A stretch of DNA of 41,166 nt from Oscillospiraceae bacterium (GTDB taxonomy: Bacteria; Bacillota; Clostridia; Oscillospirales; Oscillospiraceae): the NCBI GenBank assembly GCA_031261635.1, contig JAISJH010000114.1:1-41166 (forward strand), read 5' to 3'. The notes below the pieces were generated by a model that saw only the letters and a list, made by a program, of their open reading frames with translations, was not told where the DNA came from and searched no databases. Position numbers and translations under genes: made by a program. Below, one piece after another: positions 3,651 through 41,166 of the stretch; the first letter of the stretch is position 1, and each line of letters opens with the position of its first letter.

Positions 3651-3817
3651 CCCGTCATTGCGAAGCCGCGGAAAGCCTGAGATACGTACCATTGATATCG
3701 GCGAAGCAATCCAGTGCCGCAGTCCGCAGATACGTATGTTACGCTCCCGGCACTGGATTGCTTCGCACCTGTAACACTGTACGTATCGTGGGCTTACCGG
3801 TGCTTCGCAATGACGGG
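3651..3817. repeat. MITE-like element A, copy 2 (full)
   Basis: Perfect 16-bp terminal inverted repeat CCCGTCATTGCGAAGC (3651-3666)/GCTTCGCAATGACGGG (3802-3817) and inner inverted repeat GCGAAGCAATCCAGTGCCG (3701-3719)/CGGCACTGGATTGCTTCGC (3748-3766). Confidence 0.9.
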
Positions 3818-6976: not shown

Positions 6977-7252
6977 CCACCTTTTCAAAGGTGGCGGGGA
7001 TACTTAAGGGGCGGCGCCCCTTAAGTCGCGGCTCGCAAGCCGCGAAATCTCAGCGACCAACGTCCCCGCAACCCACGTCCTTAGACTCATAGCGCGACCC
7101 GCAGGTCGCAAGAGCCCAGCACCTCCCGTCCAACCCCGCGACCCGCAGGTCGCCCTACGCCTCCCGTCCAACCCCGCGACCCGCAGGTCGCCCACCGCCT
7201 AACCCCAACCAAGCGGCTCGCAAGCCGCCCCAACCAGCGGCTCGCAAGCCGC
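6977..7252. repeat. Array of palindromes between methyltransferase and corrinoid-protein genes
   Basis: CCACCTTTTCAAAGGTGG (6977-6994); ACTTAAGGGGCGGCGCCCCTTAAGT (7002-7026); TCGCGGCTCGCAAGCCGCGA (7026-7045); GCGACCCGCAGGTCGC x3 (7094, 7138, 7176); GCGGCTCGCAAGCCGC x2 (7213, 7237). Confidence 0.92.
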
Positions 7253-14451: not shown

Positions 14452-14603
14452 GGTTGTCCAATTGATTTATAACCATAGCAACCGGGCAAGGCGTGCAATA
14501 TTATTTTTACACTCGTAGCTTGAAAAACCGCTTGCGTTATACGATAAAACGTTGTATAATAATTCAATAACAAGGTAAATAAAAAGGCAACAGTTCAAGA
14601 GTT

Positions 14604-14763
14604 CGTCATTGCGAGCCGCGGGACGCTTGCGATACGTAGAATGTTTAGCGGCGAAGCAATCCAGTGCCGCAGTCCGCAGATACGTATGTTTTGCTCCCGG
14701 CACTGGATTGCCGCGCGCCTATACGCCCTACGTATCGCAAGTGCGGCGGCGCTCGCAATGACG
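14604..14763. repeat. MITE-like element A, copy 3 (full)
   Basis: CGTCATTGCGAGC (14604-14616)/GCTCGCAATGACG (14751-14763) terminal inverted repeat with inner GCAATCCAGTGCCG/CGGCACTGGATTGC. Confidence 0.9.
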
Positions 14764-14901
14764 GGCGGGGGCAAGCCCCGCCCCCGCGCATTGCGCGGAC
14801 GGTTGCTCTGCACCCTCCTCGTCACCCCAACTGCCCCGCCACCGTAATTGATATATTTTATTTGATAACTGTAATTTGTCAAAGGCAACGGTTTAAGAGT
14901 T

Positions 14902-14970
14902 CGTCATTGCGAGCCGCGGGACGCTTGCGATACGTAGAATGTTTAGCGGCGAAGCAATCCAGTGCCGCAG
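14902..14970. repeat. MITE-like element A, copy 4 (left half only, identical to left half of copy 3)
   Basis: 69 bp read as identical to 14604-14672. Confidence 0.9.
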
Positions 14971-14974
14971 TTTA

Positions 14975-15012
14975 GTCAGATAACAGTTATCAAATATCAG
15001 ATATCAGAGACG
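14975..15012 (-). repeat. Repeat B copy, reverse orientation
   Basis: CAGATAACAGTTATCAAATATCAGATATCAGAGACG. Confidence 0.85.
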
Positions 15013-15073
15013 AGGTTTGGACGTTGGTAGCTGGGGGGCGGGGGTTGCGTGTACACTGCGAAGGTTAAGAGTC

Positions 15074-15170
15074 CGTCATTGCGAGCGCCGCCGCACTTGC
15101 GATACGTAGGACGTTTAGGCGCGAAGCAATCCAGTGCCGGGAGCGTAACATACGTATCTGCGGACTGCGG
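15074..15170. repeat. MITE-like element A, copy 5 (half element, inverted relative to copy 3)
   Basis: CCGTCATTGCGAGCGCCGCCGCACTTGCGATACGTAGG... corresponds to rc of right half of copy 3; ends at the element centre CTGCGGACTGCGG. Confidence 0.88.
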
Positions 15171-15194
15171 GTATTTGATATTTGATAACTGTTA
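15171..15194 (+). repeat. Repeat B copy (partial) upstream of the SDR promoter
   Basis: GTATTTGATATTTGATAACTGTTA. Confidence 0.8.
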
Positions 15195-15204
15195 TTTTTA
15201 TTGT

Positions 15205-16240: not shown

Positions 16241-17751
16241 TGCAACCTAAACAAACGGTTAACAGGGGTGGTTTACAGACCACCCTTGACGTTTTGCCTT
16301 TTGGAACCGAGGAGGAAATGCGGCAAAACCTCAAAATGAGCCGCAGAGAACGCAAGGTTCTGCCCCTGAACGTAACGCGCAAGGGGCTGTATAGTGATGT
16401 AATCAGAATTGCGGGACCCGCGCTTGCCGAGATGCTCTTGTCAAGCCTTGTGCGAATGGTTGACCAAATGATGGTCGGGACAATCGGGCTTGACGCTATA
16501 GCGGCGGTCGGCTTAGTTTTGCAACCGAGTTTTCTGATGATGTCGGTAATAATGGCGCTGAATACAGGCACCACCGCGATAATCGCGAGGGCGCGGGGAG
16601 CCGGGGAAAGCGACAAAGCCGACGGGATACTAAGGCAGTCGCTTGTACTCTGCGGACTAATCTCGCTTGTGGTAATGGTTCTCGGAACTGTTTTCGCGAG
16701 GGCTATGGTGACGTTTATGGCGGCGGGTGAAATTTCGCAGTCTATAATTGACCAGGGCGTAATATACCTGCAAATCCAGACCGTTTCGTTCATTATCCCC
16801 TCGCTGTCGATGACTATTACGGCGGCTTTGCGCGGGACGGGTAACTCTAAGCCCGCTATGATTTATAACATAGCGGCAAACCTTATCAACATCGTGTTCA
16901 ACTATCTGCTGATTAACGGTATTTGGATTTTCCCGAAGTGGGGCGTCGCGGGTGCCTCCGTGGCAACCGTAATCGGTCAGGCGGCAGGTTTGATTATGGC
17001 GTTTAATTACATTTCAAAAGGCAAATATTTCCTACGGCTCAGAATAAACGCGAAAAACATTTTTGTCTTTGAAAAGTCTGTAATCAGCGGTATCTGCAAC
17101 GTCGGTATACCCGCAATGGTCGAGCAGCTTGTAATGCGCGTCGGCGTGGTAATCTTTACGCGGACTATCGCGGGGCTTGGCGACGTGAGTTACGCAACGT
17201 TCAATATAACGCTCTCAATTCAGTCGCTGTCGCTTATGAACGGTCAGGCCTTCGGCACCTCGGCGACTTCGCTCGTCGGGCAGAGTATCGGTAAGCGGCG
17301 GCTCGATATGGCAGACCAGTATTCGGCGGCTTGCAGGCGGGTCGCGCAGCTTATCTCCGTTTTCCTCGCCGCGCTGTTTGCTATCTTCGCTACGCAGTGG
17401 CTGTCGCTGTTTCTTGCGAAGCCGCTTACGCCCGAAGCCGCCGCCGCTAACGCCGAGGTTCTCAAAATAGGCGTTACGCTGATGTATATGGTCGCAATAA
17501 TACAGCCCATACAGTGTTCGCAGTTCGTAGTGGGCGGCGTGCTTCGCGGCGCGGGCGATACGCGTATAACCGCGCTGATTATCCTGTTTACAACGGTTGG
17601 TTTACGCACCACCTTCGCGTGGCTAATGGTAAACGTACTGGGCTGGGGTTTAATAGGAGCCTGGGGTGCTATGATTATTGACCAGACTATCCGGACGCTC
17701 CTGTTTTTCGCGAGGTATAATCAGGGGAAATGGAAAACGATTAGGCTTTAA
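16240..17751 (+). CDS. MATE family efflux transporter
   Basis: ~12 hydrophobic segments, MATE-type motifs (AEMLLSSLVRMVDQMMVGTIG; GQAFGTSATSLVGQSIGKRR); TAATG overlap with the SDR gene. Confidence 0.92.
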   Translation: MQPKQTVNRGGLQTTLDVLPFGTEEEMRQNLKMSRRERKVLPLNVTRKGLYSDVIRIAGPALAEMLLSSLVRMVDQMMVGTIGLDAIAAVGLVLQPSFLMMSVIMALNTGTTAIIARARGAGESDKADGILRQSLVLCGLISLVVMVLGTVFARAMVTFMAAGEISQSIIDQGVIYLQIQTVSFIIPSLSMTITAALRGTGNSKPAMIYNIAANLINIVFNYLLINGIWIFPKWGVAGASVATVIGQAAGLIMAFNYISKGKYFLRLRINAKNIFVFEKSVISGICNVGIPAMVEQLVMRVGVVIFTRTIAGLGDVSYATFNITLSIQSLSLMNGQAFGTSATSLVGQSIGKRRLDMADQYSAACRRVAQLISVFLAALFAIFATQWLSLFLAKPLTPEAAAANAEVLKIGVTLMYMVAIIQPIQCSQFVVGGVLRGAGDTRITALIILFTTVGLRTTFAWLMVNVLGWGLIGAWGAMIIDQTIRTLLFFARYNQGKWKTIRL

Positions 17752-17758
17752 GCAGTTA

Positions 17759-17789
17759 GCAGATATCAAATATCAAATATCAGAGACGA
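17759..17789 (-). repeat. Repeat B copy, reverse orientation
   Basis: CAGATATCAAATATCAAATATCAGAGACG. Confidence 0.85.
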
Positions 17790-17831
17790 AAGGTTTGGAC
17801 GGAGGTTGCGGATTGCGTATGAAGGACGTAG

Positions 17832-17858
17832 GGGCGGGTTTCAAACCCGCCCTTTTTT
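17832..17858 (+). terminator. Terminator after MATE gene: GGGCGGGTTTCAAACCCGCCC + T6
   Basis: Perfect hairpin followed by TTTTTT. Confidence 0.8.
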
Positions 17859-24673: not shown

Positions 24674-24716
24674 TAGGGTGTGTAAACGGTTACGGTGATA
24701 AACAAATCAAAACAAA

Positions 24717-24739
24717 GGGGCGGGTTTCAAACCCGCCCC
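24717..24739. terminator. Hairpin GGGGCGGGTTTCAAACCCGCCCC between convergent genes (possible bidirectional terminator)
   Basis: Perfect palindrome with T-rich sequence on both exits. Confidence 0.65.
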
Positions 24740-24753
24740 GTTTAATTACGCCC

Positions 24754-27700
24754 TCACGCAAGCAAGGCGTTGATTAGCTCTACGGCTTTTTCGTATTCCG
24801 ACATCAGTATGAACGTTGATATATCGTTCAGCCAGAGCGCCTCGCCCGCTTTGTCGTTTAGCTCGTCAACTATTTCGTCCGCCGCGCTTATGTTTTCTGT
24901 TTCGAGCGCTTGTTTTAACTTTTTCAGAGCTTCCTCGTCGCCCGGCCTGCAACGCTTACCGGCGCGTTGTTTTTTCCGCGACAGTACGGCGGTTATATGC
25001 TCTAATAAACTCGCGAGTATTTTCGCGAAGTCGTCCAAACGCGCCTCTATCGCGCTTATATCCCCGCGCTTTCCGGCGGCCTCGAGCAACGCGGCTTGTT
25101 CGGATACCTGAGCGGCTCCTATGTTTGCCGCCGCGCTCTTTATCGCGTGTACGTTTGTTATGAACAGCTGTAATTCAGCTTCTCCCGGGACTTTCCATAG
25201 TATCCCGAAGCGTTCCTCCGCGTCGCGGCAGAAAATTGATAAAATCTCGCGGTAGGCGTTTACGGAACCTCCGCTCATCGCAAGCCCGCGCTTCGTGTCA
25301 ACTCCCTCGATTTCAAAATCGACGGCTTCCGTATCGGTTTCAAGTTTAATCACGGCCTTTTCGCGCTTTTCCTTCGGCACCCATTTTTCCAGTATTTCGT
25401 TAAGCTTCGGAACCTCAATAGGTTTAGCGAGGTAATCGCTGAACCCGTTTGCGAGGAACATCTCGCTCATACCCGATACGGCGTTAGCGGTAAGCGCGAT
25501 TATCGGGACGTTTAGGAAGTAGTCGCCCTCCAGCGCGCGTATACGCTCCGTGGCCTCCACGCCGTCCATCTCCGGCATCATATGGTCCATAAAGATTATG
25601 TCAAACGCGTTTTCCCGCACGAGCCGTATCGCCTCCGCTCCGCTAAGGCAAGTGGTGATTTGCATACTGTACGGCGACATCAGTCCCTCGGCTACTTTGA
25701 GGTTTGTCGTGATATCGTCAACAAGCAGGATACGCGCCATTGGGGCAATGAAGCGTATTTTCGCCGTTTTAGCCTCGTTATTATAGCCCTCGTCCTCCTC
25801 AAGGTTATTCAGAACGTTCGCGATAGCTATGGCGTGAACGGGGTACTGAATGGAGCGCATATTCGGGCTGAGGTTCAGATTGCTGTACTCATTTATAATA
25901 ACTATCGTCCCGGCGTAGTTCTCCAGACGCGGCAGTAATCTGTCGTACCGCTGAAAATTCATAAAGAGGTAGTTATACTTACTATCCCGCAGTTCCTCCG
26001 CGAGTTCCTCGTCGGTTGAGATTATATCGTTTTGCACGCCGAGGTTATCCAGCGCGGCGGACAAGGAATTTGAATGTATATCGCTTGATTTATAGACAAG
26101 CACTTTCAGCTCCGCCGCCTTGTCAACCGCGGCGATAGGCGTATAGCTCTTAACCTCCTGCATAAAGAACGCTACGAAGGTACTGCCCGAACCGTAATGG
26201 CTCGAAACCGAGACGTCGCCGCCCATAGCGTTGCAGAGCTTCTTGGTTATCGCGAGCCCTAAGCCCGTTCCCTCGATGTTTTTGTTTAACTTTGCGTCGA
26301 ATTGCACGAAATCGCCGAACAGCTTATCTAAATCCTCCTCTTTTATGCCTATACCGCTGTCGGTAATTTCAAAAATCATCATTACTCTATGCGCGTTTTC
26401 CGGCGCGGTGTCCGGTTCCCACTCGCCGCTTATTTTGAGTTGCACAAAGCCCTCGTTAGTGTATTTGACGGCGTTTGTCAGCATATTCAGAAGTATCTGG
26501 CGTATGCGTACCTCGTCGCCGACTAAGACGTTCGGGAGTTTGCTGTCTATACTGACGGTAAACTCTATCGGCTTGTCAACGAGCCGGATACGGATTATCG
26601 CGATTACGTCGTTTATCAGCGAGGCAAGGAGGTATTCGGTCGTGACAATATCCATCTTGCCGGATTCAATTTTTGAGAAGTCCAGGATATCGTTTATAAT
26701 GCTAAGGAGGTTTGTTCCGGCGTTTTTAACGTCCGTAGCGTATTCGCGGACTGTCGGGCTGACGGCTTCGCGCAAAATCAGCTCGGATATGCCGGTTATC
26801 GCGTTCATAGGAGTACGTATTTCGTGGGACATTTTAGCAAGGAACGCGCTTTTTGCGGTGTTAGCCTCCTGCGCGATTTCAGTTTGAAGCAGAAGCTCGT
26901 GGGTGCGGTACTCCACGGCGGCTTCAAGCTCCTCGTTAGAGGTGGTCAGCGAATCGCTCACCTGCGCGGACTGCCGGGCGAGCGAAAACGCCATACATAT
27001 AATATACATCAGAAGCGAATAATTGGTAAGCATTAACAGCGGAGTATAGGTGACTACGGCGACTATATCAATTATTCCGCAAACCGTTACCGTGGCGCAG
27101 CAGATTACCACACCGCCGAGCAGGGTTTCAGTAAGCACGTGGATTGTACCGAGCGCTTTTGCCTCTTTAATAAATTTGCCGAGTTCTTTGATAGAAAAAT
27201 GGCACACCATATAGACGATTGTCACAACTCCCCAAAGCGGCGAAAGCTGAGGCAACGCAAAGCAGGTAATGACAGATATAATCACGCAAAAGACCATATA
27301 CAGCCTGTTAATAAGCCCGAGCTTTTCAGCCGGATACGCCGCTCTTTCAAGAAAGAAGCCAAAGAACGGCACCATCATATAGGTCGAAAGCATCGACATA
27401 AGCGAAGTTGCGTAGGAATTGGGAATTAAACCGTAAGCATAGGGCGTAGACGAAAAAATGTACACAGCGGAAAGCGCGGAGGCGCAGGCGTAAAAGAGGT
27501 GAATTTTTTCGCCGGGCGTAAGCGCGAACGTGATAAAGTGATACAGCCCGACCATTAAATAGATGCCCGCTATAAGGACTAAATCTATGTCGTTATGATG
27601 ACTTTTTGCAGTGTCGTATTCCTCTATGTAGTACGGTGAAACCTCGCTGAAGCCGGTCATTGAAGCGTTTTCGTTGCCGATTATCCTAAAGGCGAAAAAG

Positions 27701-28308
27701 TTCTGACCCTCGCGGATAAGCTCGGGTTTTAGCGGAATTATAAGATTGCTCCGCGTGCGGTGTGTTGTAATTTCATTATCGACAACGTGCCACTCGGACT
27801 TTACGAGTTTACCGTTTAGATATATTTCCCAGTTATCGGAAATCTCACCTAAAAACAGCCCCAGTATAGCGTCGTTCTCACGCAGGTACGCGGCCTGCTC
27901 CGGCGGGACGTTTACCTCAATCAGGTTAGTGAACTCTATGTTCTCTTTAGCAAGCAAAGGCAGAGCCGCGTTCCATTTAGGCACGGTCACAAGCCCCGTG
28001 TTATGCAGCCTAAGGGACTTTGAGCCGGGTTTCGAGCCGTCGGCGTAGTAATCAATCCAGCCGCCGGAGGTATCCGGAGTGTTTGTAATATCGCCCGGGT
28101 CGAAGCCAAGACGTGCAAAAGCCGCCCCTTGCGTAAGGTCGATAAACGCCGGGGTTTCGCCTCCGTTGAACGCGCTGTACTGCTTGACCGCCGCAATCCC
28201 GCCGATAAACAGCAAAACAAGCGCGTAGACGAGCAGCATCAGCAGCCGGTTATATGTGCGTGTACGCTGTCTGGTTCCGAACAAACGCGAGGACTCAACG
28301 TGAAACAT
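24754..28308 (-). CDS. Hybrid histidine kinase: 7TMR-DISM-like sensor, HisKA, HATPase, degenerate receiver, receiver, Hpt, C-terminal helical tail
   Basis: MSHEIRTPMNAITGI H-box, DSGIGI and GTGLGLAI N/G boxes, LLVDDITTNLKVA and DHMMPEMDG receiver, VHAIKSAAANIGA Hpt. Confidence 0.94.
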   Translation of the reverse strand: MFHVESSRLFGTRQRTRTYNRLLMLLVYALVLLFIGGIAAVKQYSAFNGGETPAFIDLTQGAAFARLGFDPGDITNTPDTSGGWIDYYADGSKPGSKSLRLHNTGLVTVPKWNAALPLLAKENIEFTNLIEVNVPPEQAAYLRENDAILGLFLGEISDNWEIYLNGKLVKSEWHVVDNEITTHRTRSNLIIPLKPELIREGQNFFAFRIIGNENASMTGFSEVSPYYIEEYDTAKSHHNDIDLVLIAGIYLMVGLYHFITFALTPGEKIHLFYACASALSAVYIFSSTPYAYGLIPNSYATSLMSMLSTYMMVPFFGFFLERAAYPAEKLGLINRLYMVFCVIISVITCFALPQLSPLWGVVTIVYMVCHFSIKELGKFIKEAKALGTIHVLTETLLGGVVICCATVTVCGIIDIVAVVTYTPLLMLTNYSLLMYIICMAFSLARQSAQVSDSLTTSNEELEAAVEYRTHELLLQTEIAQEANTAKSAFLAKMSHEIRTPMNAITGISELILREAVSPTVREYATDVKNAGTNLLSIINDILDFSKIESGKMDIVTTEYLLASLINDVIAIIRIRLVDKPIEFTVSIDSKLPNVLVGDEVRIRQILLNMLTNAVKYTNEGFVQLKISGEWEPDTAPENAHRVMMIFEITDSGIGIKEEDLDKLFGDFVQFDAKLNKNIEGTGLGLAITKKLCNAMGGDVSVSSHYGSGSTFVAFFMQEVKSYTPIAAVDKAAELKVLVYKSSDIHSNSLSAALDNLGVQNDIISTDEELAEELRDSKYNYLFMNFQRYDRLLPRLENYAGTIVIINEYSNLNLSPNMRSIQYPVHAIAIANVLNNLEEDEGYNNEAKTAKIRFIAPMARILLVDDITTNLKVAEGLMSPYSMQITTCLSGAEAIRLVRENAFDIIFMDHMMPEMDGVEATERIRALEGDYFLNVPIIALTANAVSGMSEMFLANGFSDYLAKPIEVPKLNEILEKWVPKEKREKAVIKLETDTEAVDFEIEGVDTKRGLAMSGGSVNAYREILSIFCRDAEERFGILWKVPGEAELQLFITNVHAIKSAAANIGAAQVSEQAALLEAAGKRGDISAIEARLDDFAKILASLLEHITAVLSRKKQRAGKRCRPGDEEALKKLKQALETENISAADEIVDELNDKAGEALWLNDISTFILMSEYEKAVELINALLA

Positions 28309-28346
28309 ATATTATGCTCCTTGTTACGTACAGTATGTTGTTCCTT

Positions 28347-28376
28347 ATTATACCATAGATATGTTACGTCTGTCAA
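28347..28376 (-). promoter_or_regulatory. Sigma-A promoter of the DISM hybrid kinase
   Basis: TTGACA-N18-TATAAT on minus strand. Confidence 0.65.
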
Positions 28377-28414
28377 GCCCTGCCCCTACAAGGCGCAAAA
28401 TATCCACGCCCCTC

Positions 28415-28443
28415 TTGTAATGCGGCGGGGAATATGTTATACT
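28415..28443 (+). promoter_or_regulatory. Sigma-A-like promoter of the Cache hybrid kinase
   Basis: TTGTAA-N17-TATACT. Confidence 0.55.
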
Positions 28444-28488
28444 AAGCTTGAACGTGGACTATCGACTTTGAAAGAGAGGTGCGGTGTA

Positions 28489-31400
28489 ATGGCGATGCGT
28501 ATTAAGGCTATATCCGTTATCATTTTAACCGCCGTTGTTATAATTATTTTTGGGATTGGCATAGGGCTGTCCTTTGTTACGGGGCATCTTGAACTCACTA
28601 TCGAGAGCGATATGACGGAAATAAGCGAAATCGCGGACAAGCTGATTACCACCGAGATTAACCTTCTGAAATCCGACGCGGCGACGGTTAGCCGCTATTT
28701 AATACACGTGCCGGACGCGCAGCTGCTCACGGCTTTAGAGGCGCAGGTCGCGGCTTATACTAATTTCACGGCTCTGACGGTTTTTGACCGCGACGGCGTA
28801 TATGCGTCCTGGGGCGATTCCCCAACCCCCGCCGAATACTTATATGACGACTACATACAACGCGCCTTTGCCGGGGAAACGCTTATTTCTACTACGCGCT
28901 ATGACCCGAGCGGCGCGCTTGTTTTTCACCTCTGCATACCGCTCGGCGACAGGGTGCTTTCCGTTACTATTCCCGGTATGCTTTTCAGCGACCTTTTGTC
29001 AGATATTCAGATTTGGGAAACCGGTAATATCTTTATAGTCGATTCGAGCGGAACGGTAATCTCGAACATACGCCAAAACTGGGTCGAGGAACGCTATAAC
29101 TTTGTCGAAATGGCAAAAACTGACAAAAGCTACGAGCGCATTGCGGCTACAATCAGACGTATGATTGAGGGTAAACCCGGCTCCGGGCGTTTTGCCGTTG
29201 ACGATAAGGAACGCCTCTGCGTATTCGCGCCGATAACGGCCTCAAAAGTCGGCTGGACGGTCGGGGTAGTCGCGCCGATTAGCGAAAGCCCGCTTAGTAA
29301 CGTTCACAGCGGCTTGATTATTGTCGGCTTAGTGTGCCTCGGTCTCAGCGTTATAACCTCGCTGTTCGCCTCAATCATTATTGAGCGTCCGTACAGGACA
29401 ATCAGCAGTCTTGCGGGAACGCTTGAATCCCAAAAGAAACTTTTATATACTATCAACAAAGCCGCTACGACCTTGCTGCGCTCCGAAGTGGATAATTACG
29501 AGGACGATATACGCGCCTCTATGGCGTCAATCGCTACACGCGCCGGAGTAGACCGTATGCGGATTTGGAAAAACTACGACAGCGCGGGCAAGCATTATTG
29601 TATGCAGCTATACGAATGGTCGAAGGACGCTAAAGCGCGGGACGGGAGCGTTTTTGCGCGTAATATTGCCTTTGGCGATACTCTGCCCGAGTGGTACGAA
29701 AAACTTTCCTCCGGGAAAAATATCAGCGGGCTTGTGCGAACGCTGTCAGCGGCTGAAATAGAGCGGTTTATGCTTTATAAAGCGCTCTCGCTGGTGGTTA
29801 CGCCCGTGTTTTACCAGGAAAAGTTTTGGGGCTTCGTGGGGTTTGAAGATTGCAAAAAGGAGCGTAAATTTTCGCTTGAGGAGGAAAGCCTTTTGAGTTC
29901 GGGAGGTCTGCTTGTAGCGAACGCTATACTACGGAACGAAATGACGCGCGATTTAGTGGACGCGAGGGAAACGGCTATTGCGAGTACGGAGGCGAAATCG
30001 TCCTTTCTCGCGAATATGAGCCACGAAATGCGAACGCCGCTGAACGCGGTTATAGGCCTGTCGGAACTTACGCTTGACGCGGGCGGTATCGACGTTTACG
30101 CGCAGGATAATTTAGAAAAAATATATAATTCCGGCGTTACGCTTTTGAGCCTTATCAATGACATTCTTGACATATCTAAAATAGAGTCGGGGAAATTTGA
30201 GCTTGTCCCCGTTGAGTACGATATTCCGAGCCTTATTAACGATACGGTTACGCTAAACATCGTGCGTATCGGCTCAAAGCCTATCCTGTTTAAGCTGAAT
30301 ATAGCAGCTGACCTGCCCGCAAAGCTGTTCGGCGACGAGCTTCGCGTTAAGCAGATTTTTAATAACCTCCTAAGTAACGCCTTTAAGTATACGCAGGAGG
30401 GTACCGTTGAATGGAGCCTTTCCAGCGAAACCCACGGCGACGACATTTGGATAATTTCAAGCGTCCGGGACACGGGCATCGGTATACGCCCGGGCGATTT
30501 AGAAAAGCTTTTTTCAGAATATAACCAGGTCGATACTAAAAGCAACCGCAAAATCGAGGGTACGGGTCTGGGGCTGTCCATCTGCAAGAATATGTGCAGG
30601 CTTATGGACGGCGAAATAAGCGCGAAAAGCGTATACGGCGAGGGCAGCGAGTTTACCGTCAGGATACGTCAAAGCAAAATAAGCTCTGAAATAATAGGCG
30701 CGGAGGTCGCGAATAACCTCGAAAATTTCCACTATACCGAGCGCAAACGCGACAGAAGCTCGAAACTCGTTCGCACCAATATCCCCTACGCTAAGGTTCT
30801 CGTTGTGGACGATTTGACGACTAATCTTGACGTTGCGCGGGGAATGATGAAGCCCTACGGTATGCAGATAGACGGCGCGTCAAGCGGACAGGCGGCGATA
30901 GACCTTGTACGCGCCGGGAAAGTTAAATATAACGCGATATTTATGGACCATATGATGCCCGGTATGGACGGGATTGAGGCTACAAAAATAATTCGCAATG
31001 ATATTGACACAGAATACGCTAAAACCGTGCCTATTATCGCGCTTACCGCAAACGCCGTCGTCGGAGCGGAGGAGATGTTTCTTAAAAACGGCTTCCAGGA
31101 TTTTCTTTCTAAACCTATAGATATAATGCGAATGGATATAGTAATTAACCACTGGGTGCGCGACAAGGAGCTTGAAAAGAACCTTTCAGACGGTTCAGTT
31201 AAAAGCGGTGAGAATAACGATGCGGAAAACAGGATATTCGGGCTTGTAAATATACCGGGGCTTGATTTCGAGGAGGGGCTTCAACGCCTCGGCGGCGACG
31301 AGGAAATATACTACGACATATTAAAATCCTACGTTCGCAATACGCCGCCGCTGATTGACCAACTGCGTAACTGCGCGGAGGATTTTTTGCCGGATTACGC

Positions 31401-31818
31401 GATACTGGTTCACGGTCTGAAAAGTTCAAGCCTAAGCATAGGCGCGGGGCGCGTCGGAGCGAGAGCCGAGAAGCTCGAAAAAGCCGCTAAAGCCGGTAAC
31501 TACGACTTTGTAAAAGCTGAAAACGAACGGTTTATTGAGGCGGCGGAGCGGCTATTGAAAAACCTGTCTAACCTGCTTGCGGATATCCGGGAGAATAACC
31601 CGAAGCCTAAAAAAGAACTCCCCGACCGTGATTTACTGGAAAAACTGTGCGAAGCCTGCGAGGACTATGAAGTCGACGATGTTGACGGCATTATGAGCGA
31701 ACTGAATAAATACGAGTACACTTCGGACGACGGGCTTGTTGAATGGCTCGCGGCGCAGGTTAGTATTATGGGCTTTAAGCAGATTGCGGAAAAACTTCGG
31801 CACGATTCTATCCGATAA
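28489..31818 (+). CDS. Hybrid histidine kinase: Cache-type sensor, GAF-like domain, HisKA, HATPase, receiver, Hpt, C-terminal helical tail
   Basis: MSHEMRTPLNAVIGLSE, DTGIGI, GTGLGLSI, VLVVDDLTTNLDVA, DHMMPGMDG, LVHGLKSSSLSIGA; ATG 28489 preferred to ORF-track start 28129. Confidence 0.94.
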   Translation: MAMRIKAISVIILTAVVIIIFGIGIGLSFVTGHLELTIESDMTEISEIADKLITTEINLLKSDAATVSRYLIHVPDAQLLTALEAQVAAYTNFTALTVFDRDGVYASWGDSPTPAEYLYDDYIQRAFAGETLISTTRYDPSGALVFHLCIPLGDRVLSVTIPGMLFSDLLSDIQIWETGNIFIVDSSGTVISNIRQNWVEERYNFVEMAKTDKSYERIAATIRRMIEGKPGSGRFAVDDKERLCVFAPITASKVGWTVGVVAPISESPLSNVHSGLIIVGLVCLGLSVITSLFASIIIERPYRTISSLAGTLESQKKLLYTINKAATTLLRSEVDNYEDDIRASMASIATRAGVDRMRIWKNYDSAGKHYCMQLYEWSKDAKARDGSVFARNIAFGDTLPEWYEKLSSGKNISGLVRTLSAAEIERFMLYKALSLVVTPVFYQEKFWGFVGFEDCKKERKFSLEEESLLSSGGLLVANAILRNEMTRDLVDARETAIASTEAKSSFLANMSHEMRTPLNAVIGLSELTLDAGGIDVYAQDNLEKIYNSGVTLLSLINDILDISKIESGKFELVPVEYDIPSLINDTVTLNIVRIGSKPILFKLNIAADLPAKLFGDELRVKQIFNNLLSNAFKYTQEGTVEWSLSSETHGDDIWIISSVRDTGIGIRPGDLEKLFSEYNQVDTKSNRKIEGTGLGLSICKNMCRLMDGEISAKSVYGEGSEFTVRIRQSKISSEIIGAEVANNLENFHYTERKRDRSSKLVRTNIPYAKVLVVDDLTTNLDVARGMMKPYGMQIDGASSGQAAIDLVRAGKVKYNAIFMDHMMPGMDGIEATKIIRNDIDTEYAKTVPIIALTANAVVGAEEMFLKNGFQDFLSKPIDIMRMDIVINHWVRDKELEKNLSDGSVKSGENNDAENRIFGLVNIPGLDFEEGLQRLGGDEEIYYDILKSYVRNTPPLIDQLRNCAEDFLPDYAILVHGLKSSSLSIGAGRVGARAEKLEKAAKAGNYDFVKAENERFIEAAERLLKNLSNLLADIRENNPKPKKELPDRDLLEKLCEACEDYEVDDVDGIMSELNKYEYTSDDGLVEWLAAQVSIMGFKQIAEKLRHDSIR

Positions 31819-34570: not shown

Positions 34571-34750
34571 CCCGTCATTGCGAGCCGCGGAACGCTTAAG
34601 ATACGTAGAATTGAAATCGGCGAAGCAATCCAGTGCCGGGAGCGTAACATACGGACTACGTATCGTAGGATTGTACGTCAACCCTGGATTGCTTCGCCGC
34701 GTTTCATTAACTACGTATCGCAAGTGCGGTGGCGGCTTCGCAATGACGGG
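34571..34750. repeat. MITE-like element A, copy 6 (full)
   Basis: CCCGTCATTGCGA.../...TCGCAATGACGGG termini, inner GGCGAAGCAATCCAGTGCC and CCTGGATTGCTTCGCC. Confidence 0.9.
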
Positions 34751-37210: not shown

Positions 37211-37227
37211 GGAGTAGCGGTTCGTAG

Positions 37228-37248
37228 GGGCGGGTTTCAAACCCGCCC
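37228..37248. repeat. Hairpin GGGCGGGTTTCAAACCCGCCC
   Basis: Perfect palindrome; same word as 984, 17832, 24718. Confidence 0.85.
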
Positions 37249-39499: not shown

Positions 39500-39530
39500 G
39501 TAGGCTTGTGGGCAAATAACAGTAGGCAAA

Positions 39531-39562
39531 TAACAGTTATCAAATATCAAATATCAGAGACG
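39531..39562 (-). repeat. Repeat B copy upstream of the MFS promoter
   Basis: Minus strand CGTCTCTGATATTTGATATTTGATAACTGTTA. Confidence 0.88.
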
Positions 39563-39577
39563 GAGGGTTGGACGCCC

Positions 39578-40826: not shown

Positions 40827-41013
40827 CCGTCATTGCGAAGCGCCGGTAAGCCCGCGATACGTAGGACGTTACAGGCGCGAAGCAATCCAGTGCCGGGGGG
40901 ACAACATACGTCCTACGTGTCTAAGTATCGCAGGGTTCTACGTCAACCCTGGATTGCTTCGCCGCGTTTCATTAACTACGTATCGCAAGTGCGGAGGCGG
41001 CTTCGCAAAGACG
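40827..41013. repeat. MITE-like element A, copy 7 (full)
   Basis: CCGTCATTGCGAAGC.../...GGCTTCGCAAAGACGG termini with inner GCGAAGCAATCCAGTGCCG and CCTGGATTGCTTCGCC. Confidence 0.9.
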
Positions 41014-41166
41014 GGCAGGGCTTACGCCCTGCCCTGTCCCGGCGCAATGCGCCGGGACGGTGGACGGGGTTACGTCCGCGCACTGCGCGAGGTGAGAAAC
41101 CACACCGCCGCCTACGGCGGCACCCCTCCGAAGAGGGGACTTTACGGGGGGGAGGGCGGGTTTGAA
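41010..41166. repeat. GC-rich hairpin module series following copy 7 (GGGCAGGGC..GCCCTGCCC, GTCCCGGCGCAATGCGCCGGGAC, GCCGCCTACGGCGGC, start of GGGCGGGTTTGAA...)
   Basis: Same order of modules as 900-1004, with an extra segment near 41095-41150. Confidence 0.85.

Follow-up and report, generated by a model that had tools for sequence, protein, structure and literature searches.

What are the inverted repeats that recur between genes in the 41,166-nt stretch of DNA analysed here (the window), and how could they have multiplied with no transposase beside them? The original prediction described them as a MITE-like family of seven copies. Judged by their sequence, they are enlarged head-to-head dimers of CGTC-tagged REPs, a group that includes Rickettsia RPE-4/RPE-6 and Neisseria dRS3 (Di Nocera, De Gregorio & Rocco 2013, PMC3733652). 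CGTC REPs span many phyla, often with tens to hundreds of copies per genome, and both their mobility and their preference for unlike halves were left open in 2013.

Seven copies of an inverted element in the window

The window is one contig of a 2.31 Mb genome in 125 contigs, 88.9% complete. Its seven copies, four full and three half elements, lie where they were first reported. Two full copies, to which no strand is assigned, are head-to-head dimers of type I, one between lon and a TraX-family gene (positions 3652–3816) and the other within a 760 bp mosaic in the spacer between secDF and a short-chain dehydrogenase gene (14603–14764). The remaining two, likewise unstranded, are of type II, a recurrent class with a different central loop. 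The copy at 34572–34749 has CCTGGATTGC as its second axial arm and is followed by module E, one of the palindromic modules described below, and from the copy at 40827–41014 modules E, D, H and F run on to the contig end. Half elements lie on the plus strand at 14902–14971 (a left half that ends in the central loop) and 15073–15170 (a half with the central linker), each followed by module B, and on the minus strand at about 820–902, after which come palindromic modules and three copies of B. Half elements end in the central loop, a place where insertions of other repeat families are seen as well.

The features that defined the family at first sight were all recovered: inverted termini, here CGTC[A/T]TTGCGA / TCGCAA[A/T]GACG; inner arms, present as GCGAAGCAATCCAGTGCCG / CGGCACTGGATTGCTTCGC, with the divergent second arm CCTGGATTGCTTCGCC in the last two copies; and a TACGTA core in the arms. 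Sites of GCGAAGCAATCC with up to two mismatches number 15 in the window against 5.2 expected, and shuffled sequences reach 11 at most. The reported absence of a transposase holds for the 30 window ORFs scanned against Pfam, none of which matches one. We also agree on the kinship to CATTGCGA..GCAATCC palindromes known elsewhere, and the description of dispersed, modular, two-arm palindromes with defined inverted ends is upheld.

The element is abundant throughout the genome, and nearly all of its full copies lie between genes. With up to two mismatches, GAAGCAATCCAGTGCC has 337 + 321 = 658 inner-arm sites genome-wide, and a reversed-pattern control has 0. Further statistics were drawn from a sample of 395 kb of stretches from this genome, in which 69 full dimers make up the large majority of element sites and 14-mers occurring at least 8 times cover 8.0% of the DNA. 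Typing by central loop, which used other loci as well, assigned 63 of 100 full copies to type I and 37 to type II, and ten more carry inserted sequence or core changes. None of the 69 full copies lies within an ORF of at least 300 aa, though such ORFs account for 54% of the 395 kb. The element occupies 28 of 89 tandem, 5 of 18 convergent and 6 of 16 divergent spacers, which gives no clear preference for a gene orientation. An Rfam search of the window returned no match above the gathering score, and a known structured RNA was rejected on this ground.

Enlarged relatives of CGTC-tagged REPs

The tag that marks one end of each unit, CGTC in a superfamily that also includes TGTC and CCTC, is present as CGTC[A/T]TTGCGA in all aligned copies; this uniformity is partly imposed by the search, and in the window repeats the tag was found without a pattern search. 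A and T occupy the first two positions of a self-complementary stem (ATTGC...GCAAT; its continuation shows compensatory changes and pairs in 59 of 59 copies, and a CTTTGC variant is frequent too), and the collected copies carry the CCA tail as GCAATCCAG. Head-to-head dimers, the preference for unlike halves seen in several published families and the lack of an associated transposase are further traits in common with CGTC-tagged REPs. Size sets them apart. Published CGTC REPs have a stem of 8–9 bp and a loop of 4–5 nt (PMC3733652), whereas monomers here measure about 57–62 nt, with mostly 37–41 nt between CATTGCGA(A) and GAAGCAATCC, a GAA/GAA internal loop and a long apical region. Since stem and loop sizes differ, we file the elements as an enlarged variant. 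A compact CGTC element (module k, GTCATTGCGAGCCGCGCGAAGCAATCCAAGCCCAGTAC), nearer the published REP size, coexists in the same genome; its sites include L129:15868, L134:19095, L137:9983 and a minus-strand match of L142.

Two other contrasts with published CGTC REPs concern architecture: their tag and tail were described as unpaired, whereas here both are complementary between partners, and the dimers here are the core of ordered nested mosaics. Palindrome mosaics, and dimers inside another palindrome, are known from BIMEs, A. variabilis GTAG-15 and H. neapolitanus CGTC-1 (PMC3733652); the difference here lies in a single, near-strict nesting order that about eight module families keep around the dimer. 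A literature search with element sequence strings returned nothing relevant; one by concept led to the CGTC REP paper. What is new, within the literature searched and to our knowledge, is the quantified covariation within halves that extends across phyla, the reading of the dimer as a junction, the measurement of the bias towards unlike halves and the ordered nesting.

Each half conserves its own hairpin

The fold was analysed in an alignment of 59 type-I copies from the source genome, in which the search patterns account for part of the uniformity of the tag, TTGC and tail columns. RNAalifold returned a closing stem, one hairpin per half and a central stem. When all column pairs were scanned without supervision, covariation with full pairing was strongest at 16–50, 118–152, 119–151 and 17–49, all within one half, with 59 of 59 copies paired and two to three pair types. 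At these columns, pairing is complete within halves (236 of 236 cells) and partial between them (76 of 236). The covariation score of the junction is 0.186 against 0.051 in shuffled alignments, and that of a single long hairpin is 0.032 against 0.049. In 196 halves, a left GAA in the internal loop goes with a right GAA, and a right GCG occurs only with a left GA. In the copy at 3652, the lateral hairpins supported by this covariation are H1 at 3658–3709 (plus strand; TTGC-GAA-GCCG ... CGGC-GAA-GCAA; alignment columns 7–59) and H2 at 3758–3810 (minus strand; columns 109–161), whose stem class, GCAC, is unlike that of H1.

The same pattern extends across phyla. In an independent set of 68 full elements, which covers many phyla and comes from contigs of the viral collection and of named bacteria, H1 scored 2.53 (shuffled, 1.65±0.08) and H2 2.74 (2.09±0.08), while between-half pairing, at 2.07 against 2.24±0.09, was not above chance. 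The hairpin of each half, TTGC-GA(A)-GCNN ... NNGC-GAA-GCAA, is maintained by compensatory change. The two-arm modular structure first proposed stands as to its arms and its modularity; as to the unit, it is revised to the half, because pairing takes place between the outer and the inner arm of a single half.

Because the halves are inverted, the tag of one is complementary to that of the other (CGTCA/TGACG), as are the tails (TCCAGT/ACTGGA), which allows the element to be represented as a four-way junction with no unpaired linkers. Of the 59 source-genome copies, 22 leave columns 6/162 unpaired. Across phyla, tags pair in 61 of 69 elements against 46.3±2.2 expected, and axial positions 1–4 are also above chance; we do not take this pairing as proof, since the halves are homologous inverted copies that may share tag and tail by descent. 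As RNA, the same copies have a mean folding energy of −96.9 kcal/mol as a long hairpin and −61.5 kcal/mol as the constrained junction, which would thus depend on kinetic or protein assistance. A single long hairpin has the best energy yet finds no covariation support, and was rejected as the conserved fold. By its sequence, the dimer has the potential to form a four-way junction, and it may adopt such a fold in vivo.

Dimers are mostly built from unlike halves

The two lateral stems belong to the same class in 6 of 59 type-I copies, where 18.9 were expected, and an Abyssobacteria genome has same-class halves in 0 of 27 pairs (7.7 expected). A preference for heterodimers was reported in several CGTC REP families with no obvious explanation, and it was suggested that unlike halves protect from SbcCD-type clearance (Di Nocera 2013, PMC3733652). 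Our result agrees with this idea and shows in addition that what is conserved is each half's own hairpin. The bias could partly reflect the loss of perfect palindromes in assembly. Taken together, within-half covariation and the unlike-halves rule offer a testable structural answer to the question left in 2013: the dimer would avoid a long palindrome by forming a four-way junction.

Elements at the core of ordered mosaics

The elements form the innermost layer of intergenic mosaics made of palindromic modules of about eight families, with a near-strict outward order of E, D, H, then F/C, G and B; this larger layering is absent from the original prediction. Module E (GGGCAGGGC..GCCCTGCCC) is nearest to the element, D (CCCGGCGC..GCGCCGGGA) lies outside E, H (CGCGCCGTGCGCGG) outside D, and G (CGTCCAAACC) outside F and C and inside B. 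Module B (TGATATTTGATATTTGATAACTG), a separate dispersed repeat, is the outermost layer and points outward beside genes; in the window it occurs at 1064–1189 (three copies, plus strand), 14839–14879, 14973–15019, 15159–15199, 17749–17795 and 39523–39569. The dispersed palindrome of module C, a hairpin of GGGCGGGTTTCAAACCCGCCC, is found at 979–1004, 17827–17852, 24713–24738 and 37223–37248. Counted as one module nearer to the element than the other, the order holds at 23:0 for E–D, 27:1 for E–H, 19:2 for D–H, 28:0 for H–B and 46:1 for G–B, and is looser for H–F (17:8) and F–G (22:7). Module B points outward in a ratio of 40:1 on the left and 43:6 on the right. Some axial linkers between modules are themselves complementary across the element (GGACGTAACCCCGTCCACC in composites, GGTGGACGGGGTTACGTCC in the window), and in several copies other modules are inserted in the central loop. 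Isolated full copies without other modules exist, and these carry another inverted layer (..TGTATTCAAAA..AAGAGTT).

At one orthologous site, the sister species G295 has B- and G-like outer layers and no inner layers. This is expected if the outer layers came first; precise deletion could also produce it. Composite blocks of 400–600 bp recur at about 76–91% identity, indicating that recombination or block copying also occurs, and left-half, right-half and central types are heavily shuffled, with about 30 combinations in 59 copies. As a tentative model that we hold less probable than not, the mosaics may grow from inside, each palindromic family inserting at the dyad axis of one particular earlier family and building up a fishbone of four-way junctions, with an axial stem and a pair of lateral hairpins per level; some enzyme acting in trans would then recognise the folded CGTC dimer as a four-way junction, not as inverted repeats. 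The near-strict nesting may record the order in which palindromic families inserted, which can narrow the search for a mobilising enzyme.

Lineage-specific expansion of a widespread unit

The expansion of the elements is lineage-specific. Exact matches number 418 in the source genome and 3 in G295, a relative of the same genus, whose orthologous lon spacer lacks the element. Any match at all is found in 3 of 150 other genomes of the family, and none of 294 other genomes of the order holds more than one near match to the sequence form GAAGCAATCCAGTGCC. In the stretches sampled from G295 other repeats dominate, namely tandem units of ACCACTGACCACTG and AGTGAATAGTGAATA.

The underlying unit is far more widespread. 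Short monomers and compact dimers of the CGTC half exist in many phyla, and a generic half, GTCATTGCGA-N(8-38)-GAAGCAATC, is present in at least 120 viral-collection contigs; among the matches listed, its inner sequence is very variable and usually self-complementary. Full elements were found in named genomes of Alpha- and Gammaproteobacteria, Desulfobacteraceae and other deltaproteobacteria, Chloroflexi, Bacteroidetes, Patescibacteria, Cyanobacteria, Omnitrophota, Nitrospirae, Planctomycetota, Spirochaetes, Ignavibacteriales and Clostridiales. Compared with the five phyla published for CGTC REPs (PMC3733652), carriers here add, for example, Chloroflexi, Patescibacteria, Omnitrophota, Nitrospirae, Planctomycetota and Cyanobacteria. 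Copy numbers in 45 carrier genomes range from 2 to 1048. The highest count seen, 1048 generic CGTC halves in 3.3 Mb, belongs to a Spirochaetaceae MAG (G335, locus L367), and another genome (G332, locus L361) has, besides inverted pairs, half units repeated in tandem on one strand every 47 bp.

Candidate routes of spread

No Y1 (RAYT) transposase was detected in the source genome at 88.9% completeness, in a search that did detect its positive controls. Y1_Tnp matches are present in 30 of 45 element-bearing genomes and absent from 15, among them high-copy carriers such as a Rickettsia endosymbiont (253 copies), G332 (338) and G305 (108). A Y1 transposase was therefore rejected as a universal mobiliser, as was an IS110/Holliday-resolvase-like transposase, found in 22 of 47 genomes, with one marginal match in the source genome (22.1 bits against a cut-off of 21.3). 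In single genomes, loss or missing contigs could account for a missing transposase. No excision product or target duplication was found. The target-site duplications sought for the original prediction proved not to be definable: in 14 isolated copies the flanks are further inverted layers, and nested modules blur both flanks and empty sites.

These results bear on how the elements could have spread or been kept. The REPIN-like architecture of inverted hairpin pairs with a conserved tag recalls REPINs and GTAG REPs with their RAYTs (Bertels & Rainey 2011, PMC3116915; Nunvar 2010, PMC2817692; TnpA-REP, PMC8266576), which also reach hundreds of intergenic copies, and Y1_Tnp matches in two-thirds of carriers agree with RAYT/IS200-type (HUH Y1) mobilisation of the kind proposed for them, the enzyme here being lost or missed. 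We judge this unlikely, as the tag is CGTC and not GTAG/GGAG, the source genome and 15 of the carriers, some of high copy number, lack a Y1 match, and no tyrosine transposase gene flanked by CGTC REPs was found by Di Nocera 2013 either (PMC3733652). A classical MITE, the internally deleted relative of a DDE insertion sequence whose transposase binds long terminal inverted repeats, would share with the elements their small size, non-autonomy and inverted ends (PMC10969869), and would suit the high copy number and the absence from the sister orthologous site. It is the least probable of the readings weighed here: no target duplication could be defined, no cognate DDE element was found and none of the scanned window ORFs matches a transposase, the flanks run outward into further inverted layers, the complementarity is conserved half by half, which recognition of terminal repeats does not need, and many phyla have the CGTC half, as short monomers and as compact dimers. 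The label MITE-like is accordingly revised to enlarged CGTC-tagged REP dimers, distinct from a classical TIR/TSD MITE.

Dedicated transposition might also be dispensed with, copies arising through recombination, gene conversion or template switching among intergenic spacers rich in hairpins, possibly in blocks of 400–600 bp. The recurring composite blocks and the shuffled half and central types speak for this possibility; we hold it doubtful, given that full copies stand isolated from other modules and that the patchy trans-phylum distribution suggests some mobility. That the elements are kept as RNA structures (3′ UTR stabilisers or attenuators) or as protein-binding DNA sites would agree with the strong compensatory change in their lateral hairpins and with their intergenic position. 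Such a role is improbable in view of their lack of a clear preference for convergent or tandem over divergent gene pairs, their near absence from close relatives and the lack of an Rfam match in the window.

The account that we find, on balance, somewhat probable is that of enlarged CGTC-tagged REP dimers that are hairpin-dependent, mobilised in trans and nested by dyad-axis insertion. The elements would be non-autonomous repeats amplified in one lineage. In single-stranded DNA, as on the lagging strand, or in RNA, the dimer is predicted to adopt a four-way junction made of the CGTCA/TGACG closing stem, the two lateral hairpins and the TCCAGT/ACTGGA axial stem, with four TTGC/GCAA pairs that could be exchanged between axial and lateral arms. 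Unlike halves would destabilise the competing single long hairpin, keeping two separate recognition hairpins and sparing the locus SbcCD-type palindrome deletion. Spread would depend on a putative enzyme acting in trans, other than a Y1 transposase detectable in the source genome, and the elements would accumulate in intergenic DNA. Several palindromic families would insert at each other's dyad axis, at the hairpin tip, the outer layers (B, G) arriving first and the element, with the sequences inside its loop, last.

Other features of the window

Apart from the dimers and their modules, the window holds a 38 bp unit, GCCCAGCACCTCCCGTCCAACCCCGCGACCCGCAGGTC, in two tandem copies at 7114–7189. 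Two overlapping divergent ORFs, at 24754–28308 and 28129–31818, encode hybrid histidine kinases with HisKA, HATPase, receiver and Hpt domains, and receiver and Hpt genes lie near them.
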